From: Cordilura impudica
Taxonomy: Eukaryota > Arthropoda > Insecta > Diptera > Scathophagidae
Direction of reading: 5' to 3'
Assembly (NCBI GenBank): GCA_963682025.1
Contig: OY821521.1
Span: 116,901,604-116,965,603, forward strand
Length of the DNA: 64,000 nucleotides
In this document: positions 1,334 to 43,560 of the stretch, one piece after another
Position numbering within the stretch: position 1 is the first letter of the stretch
Layout of the letters: each line of letters opens with the position of its first letter
The notes under the pieces: model-generated
The model's database searches: none
What the model was told of the DNA's origin: nothing
What the model saw: the letters and a program-made list of their open reading frames with translations, nothing else
Translations under genes and position numbers: made by a program

Positions 1334-3691
1334 ATACCCTCCACTCCAGTGTGCAGAGGGTATATATAAGTTTGTCATTCCGTTTGTAATAATTAGAAAA
1401 AAAAATTTGGACCCCATAAAATATATATATTTGTGATCCTTATAACAACCGGAGTTGATATAGCGATGTCCGTCTGTCCGTCTGTGGAAATCACGATGAC
1501 GGCATCAATCGGGCAGCTAGGGTGCTCGTTGGCATAAAAAATGATTCATTAACATCCTGAAAAGTTTGCTATTTAAAATCGTCCAAATCGGTCGATTAGG
1601 GCCCGAGATTTGAATGAAGAACTAAAAAAAGTCTTGAAAAAATATAATTTTCTATGTTGTTCTTGTCACGATCACGCCCTCAATAGGATAGCTAGGGTGA
1701 TAATTTTTAGTGAGAATGATTCACCAAATTCATGGGAAGATTTCTACTTCAAAAATTATTAAAATCGGTGGAACAGGTCCAGGTAAATCTATGAAAAATT
1801 AAAAAAAAAATGAAAAACATGATGTTTCCATATTGTTCCTGTTGTTATTCTAAATGTTGCATTGTTGTCATAGCTGGACTTGTTGTTTTTGTGGTCGTTG
1901 TGGTAATAATATAATAAAAACAAACCCTTTGTACATTTTTTTGTGAACTCTGGTAGAAAATTTTAAAAGTTTCCATTGTTTTGGCATCACTAAAAAAATT
2001 TGTTAGATCATTTCTGTCATTGCCACGAGCCTGCATGCAAAATTTCAGATCGATTGGCTCTCGGGAAAGGGGCTAAAAATCGATCCAAAATTTTGTCGAC
2101 AAGCAGACACTACCAGTTAATATAAAGGCAGTAAATAAAGGGAGTAAAAGTTCACCAATAATTTAAAAAACAAATTTTTATGTATTAATTTATTTAAAGA
2201 AAAAAATAATTTAATGAAATAGTAATAATAAAAAAAAATAATATACAATACAAAAAAAAAGAATATATAAATAAAATAAAATAAAGATAAATGCATTCAT
2301 AGCATTATAATACATATAAAAGGTCAATGTTTCCTAACCGTAACCGTAACGAGTCAGTTGTTTTTTTTTTACATGAAAATCATTTAAAACAGTTACCGAA
2401 CGTAACCGGAACGTCCCAATACTTTTCATGTGAAAAAAAGGCTGACACGTTACGTAACAGTTACATGTCGCTAACTTGTTCTTTACACAGGCTACTGCTT
2501 TTGCAACCAACTTCAAGTCTATTTATATAGTTTCGTAAGCATAACTGATAAAATTGTTTCTATTATTTTTTGCTGTAAGTAATAAATTATAAATATACTG
2601 AATTTGCAAACTAAAATGGATACATATATTGGAGGTGCTTTAATACAAAAGAGTTAACGAAACAAAATCAAAAAAAAAAAAAAACAACTCTACAACATCA
2701 ACAATGGCAGTCATATGTTCTTCAAATAGAAAAAAAAACTGCAAGTGTGTTTTGTTGGCTACAAAACATAAATAGTGTTGACAATATAACAAAATATGTA
2801 AAAGAAGTTAGTGCTATGAAATATTTTATTTTGTTAAAAAAAAAATCGCAAAATGAAAGGCTATAATTCCATTAATAATCAAAAGGCGTTAAACTAATTT
2901 ATTTATTTTTACGTTGTACTAATGCATTTTAAATAAGTAAAAGTAATTGTATATTTAAATAAAAATGCATTTGTATTATATGTTGCTGTCGTATTCAGAA
3001 AAATCAAGTAGCTGACTATACGACTACAAATGCTGCTGCCAGCAGTCGTCTATGTGTTTCATTCATGATGTTGCATTTTTTGCGAGCAATACTTACATAT
3101 ATTCTAAATAAAGAAATAATAGTTCTTTTCATACTGCGAAATCTATACAAATATATGTACAAATACTATATGTCAAATTTCAAATTTGCAATAATTGATA
3201 CATTTTTGAAAGAAAATTGTATAATATGAAATGTCTTTAATTTATTTCATAGAAAACAATTTTTTGAGGTGCGTGGATTTTCCATATTTACTGTTTTACT
3301 ATTTTCGTAATGAGGTTAAATGAGTTAAAAAGAATTTAAAATATTTGAAAATATTAGGTGAGGATCCTCAAGATGTAATATACGATCGGTCTAAAACTTT
3401 TCACTTAGAGCCACAGTTAAATTCGAAACAACAAAAACCCATATATTTTGTGCATAAAGTTTAACATTAAATGTGCTTTTCTAAAATGTCTATATATTTT
3501 TTCTCATTCATTTCTGACTATCTTCAATGTAAATTTACCAAAGTTTTTTTTATTGCAATATGTATATAAAACTTAAAAATTTAATATTTTTTATTGTGTA
3601 TTAACTTATTATTCTGCGATTTTCATTACATCACAAAATGTTACAAATTGGCACTACTGTTTCAAAAACAGAAAACTTCTATATCAGTTGA

Positions 3692-4240
3692 AAACAGTTG
3701 ATCTGTAAAACTGTGTGTGAAATTGTGTCAAATAAAATTACAAATATTAATAAATATAATAATACATATATATATATTTTATTAATTTTGTTAAGAATTA
3801 GCACAAAATTGATTTTCCATTTTGCATTTCATTTATAAAGAATTCTGCCATATTTTGTTAAAGGGAAAATCCATTTTTGTTATATTAAAAAAAACAGTCT
3901 TGCATTTAATTTTTCCGTGACTGCCTCAATAATTGCGTAGATGCCACCACAATATTTTTTCTAATTAAAACAGTTGATCTGTAAAACTGTGTGTGAAATT
4001 ATGTCAAATAAAATTACAAATATTAATAAATATAATACATATAGATATTTTATTAATTTTGTTAAGAATTAGCACAAAATTGATTTTCCATTTTGCATTT
4101 CATTTATAAAGAATTCTGCCATATTTTGTTAGAGGGAAAATCCATTTTTGTTATATTAAAAAAAACAGACTTGCATTTAATTTTTCCGTGATTGCCTCAA
4201 TAATTGCGTAGATGCCACCACAATATTTTTTCTAATTAAA
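3692..4240 (+). repeat. Subrepeat of ~275 bp, two copies
   Basis: Two tandem copies (starts 3692 and 3967) of an AT-rich unit beginning 'aaaacagttgatctgtaaaa' and ending near 'gccaccacaatattttt'. The equivalent place in unit 2 (9459-10255) has three copies, so the number changed after or during the 6-kb duplication. A strongly diverged relative lies at about 13060-13210. Confidence 0.8.
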
Positions 4241-8300: not shown

Positions 8301-11300
8301 ATTTTCAAATAAATAAACAGAACTATTAGTAAAAAAAATAGAGATATTAAACATACACATAAAATCATCCTGTCAAACACGAAGTATTTTGTTTTTTTCT
8401 ATTCTTTGTGTTTTTCGCTTATTTTGACAAAGATGCCACTCGTTTACAATTTAAATAAATAAAACAATAGATTTGTCGACTGTCGTTAAGATGTATGTAC
8501 TTAGTGAGTCATTTAATCCTTAGCGCAAACAACAATAGCTGTCGATATATTTTGCGATTGTCGGAAAACATTAATTTAAATTCAATGAATTTTATAAAAC
8601 GTCAAATGATATTTAAGAATTGCGAACGTAAAAATTGTAACATAAATAAACGCAATTTGATGAGAATGTTATTTTTTATATATAAATTTTCACAATTTTT
8701 TTTTGGATGAATATTTGAAGTTTTTCAGAAAATAAAGATAACAAATTATTTTATTTAAAATGTTTGGGACATTTGGTTTTTTGCGTTTGGCATCCCTAAT
8801 TTGATTATTTATTATTATAAATTTATTCTCAATGTTTTCCAAATATGGCAATATTTTAATAAAAAAGTTGAGAGAGATTTTTTTTTGGTTATTATTTTGT
8901 TACTCGATCCGACCTATATGGCCGCAATGAAAAAATATTTCGCCAGTTAAAAGAAACTATACAGCCATCTCCAATTAGCACGATTTAATGCATATAGCCA
9001 CCCTACACAACCATTACCTTTGCAATGGAGGTTAGGGCGAGCTATTTAATTAGCAAAAACTAAATTAAACGAGAAGTTATGTCATATAACCGGAAACCAT
9101 GCATATTTTTCCAATATTTTGTTTACATTTATTATCAATACTCAAACCGAGGTGGAGGGTATCAAAGATTCGGCACAGCCGAATTTAACACTCTTGTTTT
9201 TTATAGCATTTTCAAAAAAAAAAAAAGTTTAACATTAAATGTGCTTTTCTAAAATGTCTATATATTTTTTCTCATTCATTTCTGACTATCTTCAATGTAG
9301 ATTTACCAAAGTTTTTTTTATTGCAATATGTATATAAAACTTAAAAATTTAATATTTTTTATTGTGTATTAACTTATTATTCTGCGATTTTCATTACATC
9401 ACAAAATGTTACAAATTGGCACTACTGTTTCAAAAACAGAAAACTTCTAAATCAGTTGAAAACAGTTTATCTGTAAAACTGTGTGTGAAATTGTGTCAAA
9501 TAAAATTACAAATATTAATAAATATAATAATACATATATATATATTTTATTAATTTTGTTAAGAATTAGCACAACATTGATTTTCCATTTTGCATTTCAT
9601 TTATAAAGAATTCTGCCATATTTTGTTAAAGGGAAAATCCATTTTTGTTATATTAAAAAAAAACAGACTTGAATTTAATTTTTCCGTGACTGCCTCAATA
9701 ATTGCGTAGATGCCACCACAATATTTTTTCTAATTAAAACAGTTGATCTGTAAAACTGTGTGTGAAATTGTGTCAAATAAAATTACAAATATTAATAAAT
9801 ATAATACATATATATATTTTATTAATTTTGTTAAGAATTAGCACAAAATTGATTTTCCATTTTGCATTTCATTTATAAAGAATTCTGCCATATTTTGTTA
9901 AAGGGAAAATCCATTTTTGTTATATTAAAAAAAACAGACTTGCATTTAATTTTTCCGTGACTGCCTCAATAATTGCGTAGATGCCACCACAATATTTTTT
10001 CTAATTAAAACAGTTGATCTGTAAAACTGTGTGTGAAATTGTGTCAAATAAAATTACAAATATTAATAAATATAATACATACATATATATATTTTATTAA
10101 TTTTGTTAAGAATTAGCACAAAATTGATTTTCCATTTTGCATTTCATTTATAAAAAATTCTGCCATATTTTGTTAAAGGGAAAATCCATTTTTGTTATAT
10201 TAAAAAAACAGACTTGCATTTAATTTTTCCGTGACTGCCTCAATATTTTTTTCTAATTAAATATTAACCAATATCTAACTAGAATTATGATTTATTCTGA
10301 CTAAAAAGTTCCAATTAAAAGTTATTCATCCCAATTATGAATATTCTCAAGGAATTTCTTTCTCACGGAAAATTCATTTCTCGAGAAAAAAATTTCTCCA
10401 ATTATAAATTCCGCGTGAACAAAAAATGATTAACTGGCATCATCGAATTTCGAAGCCACTTGCTTTGCTTATTGACAATTTATTTTCTATTTTTTGTGTG
10501 TGTGCAAACGACCCTACAATAAATGTCCCAATAAACATTTTTGTTTGCTATCAACTTGAGGTGCATTTGAGATCAAATACATTTCTCAAATCTCCAACGT
10601 CAATTCTCAAATGCCCTCAATAGTTCGAATATAGTCTTCTCAACTTAAAAGGCACATTTTTTATATGGCGATTTTCATAGTTATCAAATTGAGAAATTTG
10701 TGATTCTCAACTTGATAGCAAAGAAATATTTCCAATCGGTATCAAATGGAAGGTACGGAATTGCCATATTAAAAAATATTATACAAATTTTAGAAATGAA
10801 AACAATGTACTTTTTTTAATGTTTCAATTTAATTTCATTATATATTTAACATTACTATGTACATATTTAACATTAAATGTACATATTATGTACATTTTTT
10901 AAAATCTAGAATTAAAAATAAATGAATTAATTAGTTGTACATTTTTTGAAAAATTCGACAAAAAGCAAAAATAATTAAAAATATATCAATGATTTATTTG
11001 TACTTTTTTGGCATTTTTTAATTTAATTTATTATTTATGACATATTTAAATAATATCTCAGACTTAACACAAATCGTATTCAAGTTGAAAAAATGTTTGG
11101 TCTCAAGTGGAGAAAAGTGTTGGATATCCAATTGAGAGTAAAAATGTTTCTCAAAGATTGGAAGTCTCAACTTGATGTCAAGTTGAAAGCAAACAAGGAG
11201 AAAAATTGTTCAACCCAAGTTGAGAATTACATTTGACATCAATTTAAGAACTTAACTTTTCTCCAACATTGGAGAAATATTTCAATGCATACTGGGGAAT

Positions 11301-13937: not shown

Positions 13938-15323
13938 TTAACTTTTTGTTGTCTTTACAAAATAGAGTTACCGAGTTCGTCAATGAGTTTTTTGCTTACA
14001 AAACAGTTCTACATAGTTATATAGAATTATTATTCTGCTTTACCTATAAAATATCTGATTGCGATTACATCTAATTTTTAAAAATTGTTTATAATTAATA
14101 AAGCATTATTATTCACATAAATACAAAATTTCACTTTTTAAAATTTCCATTCAAATTTAAGAAAATATCAATTATAATAAAAACTGAAAATAAAATTTCC
14201 AATTATAAATTAGAAAATATTAATTGAGTTTCAGAAAATCATATCAAAACGTCGGAAATAATAATTTTAAATTTAGAAATATCTTTACATTTAAAAATGT
14301 TTACATTTGAAAAAAATATTGCCATTCAGGAGATATTAATAACTTTTCAGTACCGCGATTCAGTAACTTCTTTTAACGATAGTCGAATTGTAAAAAAAAG
14401 AAAATTGCAAAATTATCAGTAAAATTTTGAAACGATATTCGCTATTGTTAAAGTCAGCTGTTGTTGTTATCTAAACGACAACCATTTTTGTGTTGTTTAT
14501 CGATAAAAACTTAAATTTTTAGGTTGAAATGTCGTCATACATAAATAAAAATCATGAAATAGTGAAAATATTTTGCTTTAATTAAAAAACTTTTTTATAT
14601 AAATAAAAAAATTAAATAGCATATTCAATTCATTATTTCATTTTCAAATAAATAAACAGAAATATTAGTAAAAAAAATAAAGATATTAAACATAAACATA
14701 AAATCATCCTGTCAAACACGACATAATTTGTTTTTTTCTATTCTTTGTGTTTTTCGCTTATTTTGACAGAGATGCCACTCCTTTACAATTTAAATAAATA
14801 GAAAAACAGATTTGTCGATATTAATTTAAATTCAATGAATTTAAGAAAACCTCAAATGATATTTAAGAATTGCTAACATAAAAATTGTTACATAAGTAAA
14901 CGTAATTTTATGAGAATGTTATTTTTTATATATAAATTTTCACAATTTTTTTTGGATGAAAATTTGAAGTTTTTCAGAAAATAAAGATAACATTAAATTA
15001 AAAAAATTGCATATTAATTACAGTAGTAATTGCAATATGTCTGAAAAATGACGATAAATCTAACAAACAAAAAATTTCTTCGCTTCTCAAATATATGTAA
15101 GGAGCATATGTAGATATGTACAAAAACCGTACATCACATATGACAACTCTTACGAAAAACTGAGAATAGTGGAAATTAGAAGTATAAATGCAAAAAAAAA
15201 ATATTCAAAATTCAAAAATAACGATTGTTTGTTTGGACAGAGTTGTATCTTCTGAAATTAATACAAAGTAAAGCTGTATGGTACGAAAACTGAAAACTAA
15301 CCACACTGCTCGTAGGCCTGACT

Positions 15324-15396
15324 TTAGGTGAGTGTGTTAAAGCGCTGACCAAAAAGTGCAAGTACGAGTGTATGTGAAGGTTCATGGTTCAAAACC
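15324..15396 (+). promoter_or_regulatory. tRNA-like Pol III A and B boxes, array unit 1
   Basis: GGTTCAAAACC at 15386-15396 fits the B-box consensus GGTTCRANNCC exactly. About 45 bp upstream, TAGGTGAGTGTGTTAAAGCG (near 15324-15343) resembles the A box and D-arm of a type II tRNA (Leu/Ser). The same sequences occur about 609 and 1227 bp downstream in units 2 and 3. No clean acceptor stem forms, so it is a tRNA-derived head rather than a tRNA gene. Confidence 0.6.
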
Positions 15397-15480
15397 TCAC
15401 GGCCGCCCTAAGTAGAAAAAAATTTTCATATAGAAACAATCTATTCAATTAAAACATAACAATTATCACAATGTTCAATA

Positions 15481-15521
15481 AATCGCTGATGAAGGCTGAA
15501 ATGCCAGAAACCGGTCCGATT
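15481..15521 (+). ncRNA. Hammerhead ribozyme-like motif, copy 1
   Basis: Fits a type I hammerhead. Stem I is AATCG (15481-15485) with CGATT (15517-15521). The core CTGATGA is at 15486-15492. Stem II is GGC/GCC with a TGAAAT loop. GAAA is at 15507-15510. Stem III is the palindrome ACCGGT with no loop, followed by C15516 at the expected cleavage position (GTC). The one departure is an A-A mismatch where a G-C pair (10.1-11.1) normally sits at the base of stem II, which may weaken activity. The loopless stem III would work best as a dimer, which a tandem transcript provides. Confidence 0.6.
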
Positions 15522-16099
15522 AAGAATACAGTGCAGTTATGAATTTTTGAAATATATGCTTTCTTCTTCTTTACCACGCACCATTTAAACAAAATTAATA
15601 AAAAAAAAAAAAAAATTGCATATTAATTACAGTAGTAATTGCAATATGTCTGAAAAATGACGATAAATCTAACAAACAAAAAATTTCTTGGCTTCAAAGC
15701 GTCATCTCAAATATATGTAAGGTGCATATGTAGGTATGTACAAAAACCGTACATCACATATGACAACTCTTACGAAAAACTGAGAATAGTGGAAATTAGA
15801 AGTATAAATGCAAAAAAAAATATTCAAAATTCAAAAATAACGATTGTTTGTTTGGACGGAGTTGTATCTTCTGAAATTAATACAAAGTAAAGCTGTATGG
15901 TACGAAAACTGAAAACTAACCACACTGCTCGTAGGCCTGACTTTAGGTGAGTGTGTTAAAGCGCTGACCAAAAAGTGCAAGTACGAGTGTATGTGAAAGT
16001 TCATGGTTCAAAACCTCACGGCCGCCCTAAGTAGAAAAAAATTTTCATATAGAAACAATCTATTCAATTAAAACATAACAATTATCACAATGTTCAATA

Positions 16100-16140
16100 A
16101 ATCGCTGATGAAGGCTGAAATGCCAGAAACCGGTCCGATT
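16100..16140 (+). ncRNA. Hammerhead ribozyme-like motif, copy 2
   Basis: Same sequence and fold as the copy at 15481, 619 bp downstream. Core CTGATGA is at 16105-16111 and the predicted cleavage is after C16135. The A-A mismatch at the base of stem II is shared, so it is a family feature rather than damage to one copy. Confidence 0.6.
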
Positions 16141-16717
16141 AAGAATACAGTGCAGTTATGAATTTTTGAAATATATGCTTTCTTCTTCTTTACCACGCAC
16201 CATTTAAACAAAATTAATAAAAAAAAAAAAAAATTGCATACTAATTACAGTAGTAATTGCAATATGTCTGAAAAATGACGATAAATCTAACAAACAAAAA
16301 ATTTCTTCGCTTCAAAGCGTCATCTCAAATATATGTAAGGTGCATATGTAGGTATGTACAAAAACCGTACATCACATATGACAACTCTTACGAAAAACTG
16401 AGAATAGTGGAAATTAGAAGTATAAATGCAAAAAAAAATATTCAAAATTCAAAAATAACGATTGTTTGTTTGGACAGAGTTGTATCTTCTGAAATTAATA
16501 CAAAGTAAAGCTGTATGGTACGAAAACTGAAAACTAACCACACTGCTCGTAGGCCTGACTTTAGGTGAGTGTGTTAAAGCGCTGACCAAAAAGTGCAAGT
16601 ACGAGTGTATGTGAAGGTTCATGGTTCAAAACCTCACGGCCGCCCTAAGTAGAAAAAAATTTTCATATAGAAACAATCTATTCAATTAAAACATAACAAT
16701 TATCACAATGTTCAATA

Positions 16718-16758
16718 AATCGCTGATGAAGGCTGAAATGCCAGAAACCGGTCCGATT
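16718..16758 (+). ncRNA. Hammerhead ribozyme-like motif, copy 3
   Basis: Identical motif 618 bp after copy 2, with predicted cleavage after C16753. Cleavage at neighbouring copies would release monomers of about 618 nt. Confidence 0.6.
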
Positions 16759-17520
16759 AAGAATACAGTGCAGTTATGAATTTTTGAAATATATGCTTTC
16801 TTCTTCTTTACCACGCACCATTTAAACAAAATTAATAATAAAAAAAAAAAAATTGCATATTAATTACAGTAGTAATTGCAATATGTCTGAAAAATGACGA
16901 TAAATCTAACAAACAAAAAATTAAATTATTTTATTTAAAATGTTTGGGACTTTTCGTTTTTTGCGTTTTTCATCCCTAATTTGATTATTTATTATTATAA
17001 ATTTATTCTCTATGTTTTCAAAATGTGCCAATATTTTAAAAAAAAGTTGAGAGAGCTTTTTTTTTTTGGTTATTATTTTGTTACTCCATCCGACCTATAT
17101 GGCCACAATGAAGAAATATTTGGCCAGTTAAAAGAAACTATACAGCCATCTCCAATTAGAACGATTTAATGTATATAGCCACTCTACACAACCATTACCT
17201 TTGCAATGGAGGTTAGGGCGAGCTATTTAATTAGCAAAAACTAAATTAAACGAGAAGTTATGTCATATAACCGGAAACGCATGCATATAGGTGTATAACC
17301 AAAATGCATGCCGATCAGCAACCACGATGACCAAAAAGCAAACACCGAAATAACTCCGAAATAATAGAAAAGAAGAAAACCAACCAAAAGAATTTGCTGA
17401 AATAATTTGGTATTAAGTTTAACAAATTGTTTACTTTTTCATTTACATTTATTATCAAGACTCAAACCAAGGTGGAGGGTATCAAAGATTCGGCACAGCC
17501 GAATTTAACACTCTTACTTG

Positions 17521-40660: not shown

Positions 40661-41364
40661 TGCAGACATAACTTGGAGGTAATTTAGCTGTGGATTTTCG
40701 TATTTTTTATTTAACCAAATCGGACAAACCGTTCTTGAGTAATGCTAAAATATGTGGTGAAGCCTCCTTCATTTTTTAAATAGCGGTTTATCGCGAGAAC
40801 CAGAGTTAATCCACAAAAAGTGAGTTATCGACTTAGGTCTTCATCAGCAGATGTAGCAAAATTGACTAACAATCCCTATGCCGCAGAATTAGTGTTGCCC
40901 TGTGTTATATATATGGGGTGCATATATAGCTAACGTGTATAAGGTTGACAGCATATTATATTAATATAGTTGTATCATCTGAAAGTCGTTGTATAAATAT
41001 TTTGAAAATTTTTGTAGTTCTCAAACAAAAATGTAGATGTCGCTAGTGTGTGTCTAGACTGATTGGACGGTGTACAGCAGTGTCGGCCATATCGGCACCA
41101 GCGAGCCGAACTCTAATCGGCTTCTTATATGTATACAGCCGAACGAAAACAAAAATACTCACCAAAGAGTAAAAGTAAACAACAATTTCATTCAGTCATA
41201 CGAAAGCTTTTGAACAAAGCAGGTCTATGTCGCATTGCCTTTGAAATTCTTTTATTGTTTTTTTAATAGGTACACAGAGAATATTTACAGCAATGCAAAA
41301 TTTTTTTGTTTTGTGAAAGCTTATATATTTTTTTATAAATGGATTTTTAATAAAAATAAAGCAA
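40661..41364. other. Spacer with hammerhead-like trace and possible hAT-type end
   Basis: Holds the CTGATGA motif described separately at 40820-40860. At about 41083-41110 'cagtgtcggcc' resembles a hAT terminal inverted repeat, but I found no partner. Nothing else is supported. Confidence 0.35.
40820..40860 (-). ncRNA. Degenerate hammerhead-like trace near the Penelope-like element
   Basis: On the minus strand CTGATGA is followed by AGAC-CTAA-GTC, a possible stem II, but then GATAAC instead of GAAA. It lies downstream of the Penelope-like ORF on the same strand, and such elements often carry hammerheads in their terminal regions. The second box is mutated and stem I is not convincing, so at best this is a decayed copy. 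Confidence 0.3.
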
Positions 41365-41935: not shown

Positions 41936-43560
41936 TAACTCATTTCTCTCGATGGCCACCACTGATGTACAGCATCTCTAACGTCAATCTCTTGTATGTG
42001 TTTTCTGTTTGTATTATACGAACGTTGTCAAAGTCTGGTGAGTGAGAGTTTTCTGCACAGTGGGACGAAAGTGCAGGTTGTTGTGAATTTTGAGTGTTGC
42101 GTATTCTTGAATTTGATTTGTCTCCGCTGAACCTCGTTTTTAAAGTGTTTTTATAGTTCCGACGTAAACTTTGTCGCAGGCATCTTGTATGCTGTAAATT
42201 TGGTTGTTTTGTCAAGTTTATTGGTTTTGGTGTTGGTGAAGAGTTTCTTCGTAGTATTGTCCATTTTGTAGGCGATTTTTATGTTGCTTTCGTCACAGAA
42301 CTTTATATTGTTCATTCTTTCCGCAATTCTTGGTTCGTATGTGATGCTTTTTAGATTTTAGGCTGTTCTGGATTCGTATATTTTATCTGTGTTGAATTTG
42401 TTGAGCAAAATGTTAATCATAATTGTTTTTTTGTTTTCTCCGTGAAAAATTGTGTCTCTGATCGGTAGTACTCGTTTGATAAAGTTGTTTCGAAAAATAG
42501 TTGATAAGGCGGCCAGATGATGTAGGTTTTTGGTACCAGTTAACTTTGATTGTATTTTTTTCGCGTATTAGTTTTGTATCTAGATATGGCAGCTAGTTGT
42601 TTTGTTATTCTTTCGTGAATTTTATGATTACATGGAAAATCTTCAATACTCCAAGTGTTATTTCTATTTGGTCCTTTTTCACTATTGCCAAAATGTTATT
42701 GACATATTTGGTTAGAAGTTTAGGTTTTATTCATACAGTTTTTTCAAACATTGGTCTAGAAGGTCCTTTATAATAATGTCTGCAATAATCGGAGGTAGTG
42801 CTGATCCCATTGGTAGCCCTTTTAAATTTTGTCTTTGTATTTAAAATACCGAGTATCTTTTATGCAGAATCAAGAAAAATTCCTTCGTCCATTTCATTGA
42901 TGTTTCTATCTGTTGCCATTTATTGTCGATGAGTTTTAATGCATGGTCCACTGGAATACTGGGAAAAAGTAAAACTACGTCAAAGGATATCATGTCCTCG
43001 ATTCTTGTGTTGTTAAGTTTGTTCTTGAACTCTATGGCGCCTGTTACGTTGTATACAGATCCTTCTGTAAGCGTTTTAAGTAAAGTTGTCAAGTATTTGC
43101 ATAATTCGTGGGCTGGTGCGTCGATGTTTGAACAAATTGGTCGTAGTGGTGTTCCTTCTTTGTGAATTTTCTGCATTCCATATATTCTTGGTACTCTTGG
43201 TGTAGTTACTTTTAATTTGAATTTCTCTCTGTCGTTGATAATACCCTGTGTGGCCATCTTGCCAATGATTTCGCTGGTTCTTCTGTGTACGACTCTGTGT
43301 AAAGACATCTGTGTAAAGACTCTTCAAATGATCAATTGTACGGGCATTCATAAACAAATAGGCCTCTTGAGTATTGTCCTACATGCCGTCAATTATGAAG
43401 CCAACTGGTTCAAATTCATCGATACCGCCACAGTGGAAATCAATGTTTTCCATTTCTATGACATAACGACGGATGTTGTCTTTCTTACTCCATTTATAGT
43501 TGGCCAAAACTTTATAAATTTCGCCGCGTTTTTATGACCTGACAAAATTCTTTAATAAGC
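41936..43560 (-). pseudogene. Penelope-like element ORF (RT + endonuclease remnant)
   Basis: Minus strand. The RT core lies at 42841-43308 with VPRIYGMQKIHKEGTPLRPI, SFDVVLLFPSIPVD and ALKLI. It continues in another frame at about 42730-42840 (GLPMGSALPPIIADI). The active-site box at 42695-42706 reads YVNN where the family has YVDD, so both catalytic aspartates are changed. The C-terminal end of the endonuclease region is at 41940-42215 (SSHCAENSHSPDFDNVRI, then YKRLTLEMLYI). In active Penelope elements the GIY-YIG endonuclease follows RT. The copy has many frameshifts and is dead. Confidence 0.85.

Follow-up and report, generated by a model that had tools for sequence, protein, structure and literature searches.

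How does a short tandem array with no coding capacity of its own come to lie in a fly chromosome, and does the ribozyme-like motif in each of its units take part in its movement? We address this question for a 64,000-nt stretch of the Cordilura impudica genome (GenBank assembly GCA_963682025.1, contig OY821521.1, positions 116,901,604 to 116,965,603, forward strand; hereafter the window), in which a preliminary description had noted tandem units resembling short interspersed nuclear elements (SINEs), each carrying a hammerhead-like ribozyme. We consider it probable that the array arose by a single insertion of a retrozyme family that is young, non-autonomous and moved by the machinery of Penelope-like elements (PLEs). 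The Penelope-type anatomy of such insertions is not visible from the window alone. That PLEs move retrozymes has until now been a published guess; here the insertions bear the marks of PLEs and both their arms are clonal, so that a model combining PLEs with RNA circles becomes directly testable in a fly.

A tandem array with a hammerhead-like motif in every unit

Alignment resolves the array (15007-16922) into three units of 609, 618 and 619 bp followed by 70 nt of a fourth. The tandem arrangement described earlier therefore stands, and its unit size of about 618 bp holds for two units but not for the first, which is shorter because of an 11-nt gap.

15007..15615, forward strand: unit 1, 609 bp, with an 11-nt gap relative to units 2 and 3 (alignment)
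15616..16233, forward strand: unit 2, 618 bp, the reference for unit coordinates (alignment)
16234..16852, forward strand: unit 3, 619 bp (alignment)
16853..16922, forward strand: 3' tail, the initial ~65-70 nt of a fourth unit, with the AC-rich end CTAACAAACAAAAA
15481..15521, forward strand: type I hammerhead-like motif of unit 1, predicted cut after 15516
16100..16140, forward strand: type I hammerhead-like motif of unit 2, predicted cut after 16135 (unit position 520)
16718..16758, forward strand: type I hammerhead-like motif of unit 3, predicted cut after 16753
16086..16152, forward strand: extended stem I of unit 2 (CAC/GTG, 2x2 loop, TGTTC/GAATA, AATA/AA internal loop, AATCG/CGATT)

The 41-nt motif (AATCG-CTGATGA-A-GGC-TGAAAT-GCC-A-GAA-ACCGGT-C-CGATT) fits a type I hammerhead and is identical in all three units, and the window holds no other place that matches it at three or fewer mismatches (0.00 expected). 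A full type I descriptor, comprising the core, stem II (one base mismatch tolerated), an A-U-closed stem III and stem I, has three matches in the window, all in the units of the array, which bears out the earlier observation of one motif per full unit; owing to duplication the three copies were scored as a single event. Applied to 300 Markov resamplings of the window (38.4 Mb, both strands), the descriptor returned 13 relaxed matches and none in its strict form, with a palindromic stem III and a 5-bp stem I. The gap pattern of the core is not significant by itself (three found vs 1.33 expected; 14 of 100 shuffles reach three). Stem I continues past its internal loop, as it does in natural type I hammerheads. 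The A-A mismatch at the base of stem II, previously given as a caveat, is real and is atypical for this type.

The unconstrained minimum-energy fold of a homodimer of a 75-nt stretch is a double hammerhead in which ACCGGT pairs with ACCGGT; for the bare 41-nt core the double hammerhead is not the homodimer minimum. Fold energy, of monomer or homodimer, was dropped as evidence for a ribozyme because shuffles do equally well, the monomer energy of the motif region being no better than theirs. Searches with the motif, its loop left variable, in viral contigs and with an exact 25-nt piece in prokaryote genome contigs gave no matches. With a GC content of 31-32%, the element has a longest reading frame of 78 aa across the three tandem units, and no open reading frame (ORF) for a reverse transcriptase or a GIY-YIG endonuclease; it is therefore not an autonomous PLE.

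Insertion anatomy and clonality across the family

A search of the 1.486-Gb source genome (855 contigs) yielded 414 candidate regions; scoring was confined to the best 40, which gave at least 162 matches, so that further arrays, whose presence had been left to be checked, do exist. Thirty-five loci taken from the matches listed were mapped together with the window, giving 36; since they were drawn from the best-scored listing, the sample is skewed towards window-like copies. Thirty-two are insertions with both ends, the others being cut by the fetched stretch (L035, L041 and L053) or ending in N (L057).

These 32 insertions are built in one of two ways. Twenty are direct arrays and 12 are head-to-head pairs, with none arranged tail-to-tail. 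By BLAST coordinates, every one of the 44 array 3' ends lies either at unit positions 592-612 (site 1) or at positions 59-70 of the next unit (site 2), two windows that cover 5.4% of the unit and were set after the data were seen. Direct arrays end at site 2 in 12 cases and at site 1 in eight. The window array is the one-armed form with a tail, and the class of its tail end (unit 59-70) is found again at other loci. What had been taken for a poly(A) is an A-run internal to the window units, at the place of which most other loci carry the 11-nt AAAATTAAAAA. Site 1 falls 72-92 nt past the predicted cut; for site 2 the distance is 157-168 nt in the window unit and about 13 nt shorter where the 11-nt spacer is present.

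16207..16227, forward strand: 3'-end site 1 as read at other loci (unit 592-612), directly before and within the internal A-run
14992..15000, forward strand: left copy of a putative 9-bp target-site duplication, ATTAAATTA
16920..16928, forward strand: right copy of the putative duplication, ATTAAATTA, overlapping the tail end by microhomology

In 11 of the 12 head-to-head pairs the arms are discordant, one ending at each site (P = 0.0098 under random pairing). The 5' ends of the arms are scattered, with overlaps or short inserts at the head-to-head junctions. Flanking direct repeats of at least 9 nt accompany 21 of the 32 insertions, whereas 992 mismatched flank pairs show them in 11.2% of cases; because several are simple sequence, we regard them as supportive and not as exact. 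For the window by itself the putative target-site duplication (TSD) is weak evidence, as at least 9 nt are common to 9.9% of AT-matched random pairs and 0.7% of all random pairs, and TSDs were therefore judged over the whole insertion set. The same ATTAAATTA site is occupied at L065, in a copy of the window flank that is ~98% identical, by an array of another subfamily (9-10 single-nucleotide polymorphisms (SNPs) from the window units, none from L040, L042 and L043). Two subfamilies at one site in two copies of the host sequence suggest that target choice is probably non-random.

Two clusters among the 44 arm 5' ends are recorded as post hoc leads only. Four ends, including one within a microsatellite, lie at unit 522-524, adjoining the predicted cut, and five lie at unit 572-576 (window ~16187-16191) near TTTACCACGC, where a transcript start or a stop of the reverse transcriptase is possible.

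Within an insertion the units are nearly identical. Across 94 full units from the 36 loci, the mean number of SNPs is 0.66 within an array (117 pairs) and 0.57 between opposite arms (51 pairs), compared with 6.12 between loci (4203 pairs). Opposite arms do not differ at all at L040, L043 and L064, and differ by 0.67 at L049 over 12 full units. Differences within a locus are unique to that locus in 31 of 37 cases; among the other six, three are states of the reference unit itself and three are common to other loci (L035, L041 and L053). A-run lengths and period are likewise mostly constant per locus, periods ranging from 597 to 629 bp except for two shortened units of 573 and 430 bp. Among the units of several loci there is no SNP difference at all, so the family has been recently active. 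Units of the window array differ more (by 4.0 SNPs), which we read as age.

The near-identity of units within insertions and across both arms, set against the divergence between loci, suggests that each insertion seems to have been copied from one monomer, and this template was probably an RNA circle produced by the hammerhead. Template jumps on a linear monomer should scar the motif, and no indel occurs within the 41 nt in any of the 127 motif copies read from the 36 loci, which favours a circle. The data are most simply explained by one closed circle that served both primers for repeated copying, and the chief rival explanation is a homogeneous multimer. Of the 127 motif copies, 110 have the same sequence; a single G-to-A substitution, which disrupts one pair of stem II, is common to 12, and the remaining five are altered in other ways. 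Core and stem I, for which a check of conservation had been proposed, are thus unchanged in most copies, and the family is so young that this is no proof of function.

PLEs of the same genome follow the same rule

The window contains a PLE remnant of its own, outside the array.

42841..43323, reverse strand: Penelope-type reverse transcriptase fragment (PLE remnant), assigned via relatives of the homologous L067 protein

With this fragment as the query, 3245 candidate places were found; the 150 scored and listed among them include many that have long open frames. The best relatives of the L067 protein are fly proteins, many of them muscid, with beetles, ants and a coral lower down; many have a reverse transcriptase domain, and one of the 120 listed has a GIY-YIG domain, whereas Pfam found no domain in two PLE pieces. 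On the strength of these domain-bearing relatives and of the hammerhead/ATG geometry seen by eye, the sequences can be putatively assigned to PLEs; at L072 the frame concerned soon stops and the long ORF begins further on.

Among the 150 listed matches, PLE neighbours within 6 kb of each other fall into 16 '-+', 18 '++', one '--' and no '+-' pairs, so that opposite-strand neighbours are head-to-head in 16 of 16 cases; judging from spacing, a single duplicated segment probably accounts for three of the 16. The outer ends are discordant in six of the seven head-to-head pairs measured, one of which (C2:175303277) was placed through a 75%-identical family. An eighth (C2:251190743/251192927) was left out because its presumed right end (L071) contained no PLE sequence. 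Hammerhead-like cores precede the end sites, which in three families are found 59-117 and 100-149 nt downstream of the predicted cut. Paired arms placed on their own family end 30-44 nt apart, unlike those of the element, whose two sites are ~86 nt apart in the unit of the window and ~13 nt closer at loci carrying the 11-nt spacer. Of 21 sampled PLE junctions, six have a hammerhead-like core in which stem II follows one unpaired U (L069, L072, L088, L089, L091 and L093), two have descriptor matches of a different shape (L083 and L085) and 13 have none. An irregular stem II base, as in the element, therefore occurs in PLE hammerheads of the source genome.

Several further observations concern these PLEs. 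Three families (L072, L088 and L089) share, by eye, a GACCT (or GGCCT) ... AGGTC complement around end site 1, possibly a recognition stem, which the element, also by eye, lacks around its own site 1. At L070 (C2:251188900-251189700) a PLE arm ends no more than ~50 bp from a reverse-oriented copy of the hammerhead element, and 54 bp lying between the two match the left flank of the window array (14683-14736). A long tandem run of PLEs at C1:231703631-231766173 has a spacing of mostly ~2.8 kb and nearly equal scores. Near the PLE remnant in the window, CTGATGAAGACCTAAGTCGATAAC (40820-40860, minus strand) resembles, by eye, a decayed hammerhead core.

Proposed mechanism, rivals and known systems

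The retrozyme comparison made in the preliminary description proved the best analogy at the level of the family. Metazoan non-LTR retrozymes carry type I hammerheads, some with a very short palindromic stem III, and the element resembles them in hammerhead type, tandem head-to-tail copies, lack of an ORF and low GC, as well as in TSDs that, where present, exceed 4 bp (PMC7229834). The core and three helices of such a hammerhead appear to be present in the element, as predicted from its sequence, with the atypical A-A pair at the base of stem II. The element differs in unit length, ~605-619 nt against the ~170-400 nt given there as a described range and not as a definition, and in its RNA polymerase III (Pol III) B box, while head-to-head composites with two fixed end sites receive no mention in the portion of that account consulted (PMC7229834). 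Insects are counted among retrozyme carriers by Cervera and de la Pena (PMC7229834). Related designs show how short or imperfect stems behave. In the axolotl, HHR_Amex1 has a one-pair stem III with a palindromic tetraloop and works far better as a dimer, and HHR_Amex2, whose stem II has a U-U mismatch at its base, is weak as a monomer (22% cleavage in one hour) and better as a dimer; these satellite hammerheads, likened here by description, have units of about 330-350 nt (PMC7229834). Schistosoma SM-alpha is a SINE-like repeat with a type I hammerhead, although from another phylum and likened by description only (PMC8490949).

In its insertions the element resembles Penelope/Poseidon-type PLEs, which combine tandem and head-to-head copies, a tail on one arm, short TSDs, AT-rich targets and a minimal hammerhead ahead of the start sites of reverse transcription (PMC3846280, PMC11167929); it differs from them in having neither a reverse transcriptase or endonuclease ORF nor sequence in common with the PLEs sampled. 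In PLEs the tail is optional on one inverted pseudo-long terminal repeat (pLTR), TSDs measure 8-10 bp and the head-to-head form is the commonest (PMC3846280), and in the case of the Anolis PLE AT-rich DNA is cut on both strands, while reverse transcription begins within the template at two neighbouring positions (PMC11167929). In 2020 Cervera and de la Pena named PLEs a strong candidate for moving animal retrozymes (PMC7229834), in which, as they wrote elsewhere that year, neither a conserved motif that would betray the mobilising machinery nor a promoter had been seen (PMC7761336). The titles and abstract openings listed by searches of an open-licence library disclosed no retrozyme with such an insertion anatomy and no retrozyme family of flies.

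Taken together, these likenesses suggest the following mechanism. Multimeric RNA would be cut by dimeric type I hammerheads into monomers of ~605-619 nt, which would then be closed into circles. A PLE enzyme, acting in trans, would cut AT-rich DNA, and reverse transcription would be primed internally on the RNA, at one or other of two sites past the hammerhead, by analogy with the enzymology of the Anolis PLE. With both DNA ends acting as primers on one template, several rounds of copying would give two clonal tandem arms, joined head-to-head with one starting at each site and flanked by a short target duplication. We incline, if only slightly, towards the full form of this proposal, in which each insertion records one hammerhead-made circle, primed from both chromosome ends at two neighbouring sites and copied in rolling-circle fashion by a Penelope-type enzyme. 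Two DNA ends starting at different sites may also explain why head-to-head PLE inserts carry a tail on one arm only.

A number of results weigh against this proposal. No Rfam model matches anywhere in the window at gathering, and the hammerhead covariance models, the search suggested earlier, find nothing in 14900-17000 even at E <= 10, although such recognition is no defining feature of retrozymes in the portions of the literature consulted. The energy of the homodimer fold is ordinary (133 of 300 shuffles are as low). Variability of the motif is 0.0035 vs 0.0092 at unit positions 20-464, but ranks only 138th of 535 windows, which is not exceptional, and its conservation was dropped as a sign of selection. 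The 12 G-to-A copies are every motif copy read in L064 (seven), L046 (three) and L048 (two), so these loci inserted although the stem II pair is broken in all units read. The Anolis PLE can insert in vitro without its ribozyme, which cut only when protein was supplied (PMC11167929). The two-site rule is broken by L065, the lone concordant head-to-head pair, whose right arm, read letter by letter, ends ~10 nt past site 1, and among PLEs by pair C6:6475801, whose left arm ends before the hammerhead region. L064, scored as discordant because a direct repeat encloses the whole insert, has a long, expanded A-run at the site-2 position of its last unit and would be concordant if the arm were read as ending there. 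Between the element and the 21 PLE junctions, sampled from the 3245 candidate places, only AT-rich noise is shared. Lastly, clonality could also stem from homogeneous source arrays or from later expansion.

The first of these sources of clonality leads to a rival that keeps insertion of the PLE type but takes as template a long multimeric transcript from an array that was homogeneous beforehand, with a hammerhead that plays no part or has been lost. The mRNA of the Anolis PLE is described as multimeric, and uncleaved RNA is its dominant substrate in vitro (PMC11167929), a picture with which the unexceptional conservation of the motif and the 12 copies with a broken stem II pair would agree. 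Mutations of the parental units should then recur as shared polymorphism within arrays, whereas most within-locus differences are private and three states are shared, and we judge this account unlikely. Later growth, in which a PLE inserts a monomer or dimer that expands in the manner of a satellite by unequal exchange or replication slippage, would produce homogeneous arrays with variable unit number, as found; near-zero divergence at many loci leaves little time for such growth, and the identity or near-identity of opposite arms of one composite speaks against it, making it very unlikely.

Still more improbable is an ordinary SINE mobilised by long interspersed nuclear element (LINE) priming at A-rich stretches. 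In favour of such a SINE are the A-rich end sites, extra A's at a few ends (L031 and L058) and a B box, from which transcription of the element by Pol III might start.

16005..16015, forward strand: Pol III B-box match, GGTTCAAAACC, with the same letters in units 1 and 3

This box is the part of the tRNA-like head reported earlier that could be recovered, strict patterns finding no A box and neither ARAGORN nor the Rfam tRNA model a match. Given the B box alone, an A-run that is internal and in most other loci occupied by the spacer, and 3' ends most of which lack an added poly(A) or simple-repeat tail, SINE-like is a weak description. LINE twin priming, moreover, is not expected to place both outer ends at two fixed start sites.

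Tandem repetition in the window extends beyond the element: a 271-bp unit, in which the hammerhead descriptor finds no match, is repeated near-identically at 3691-4240 (2.0 copies) and at 9459-10245 (2.9 copies).

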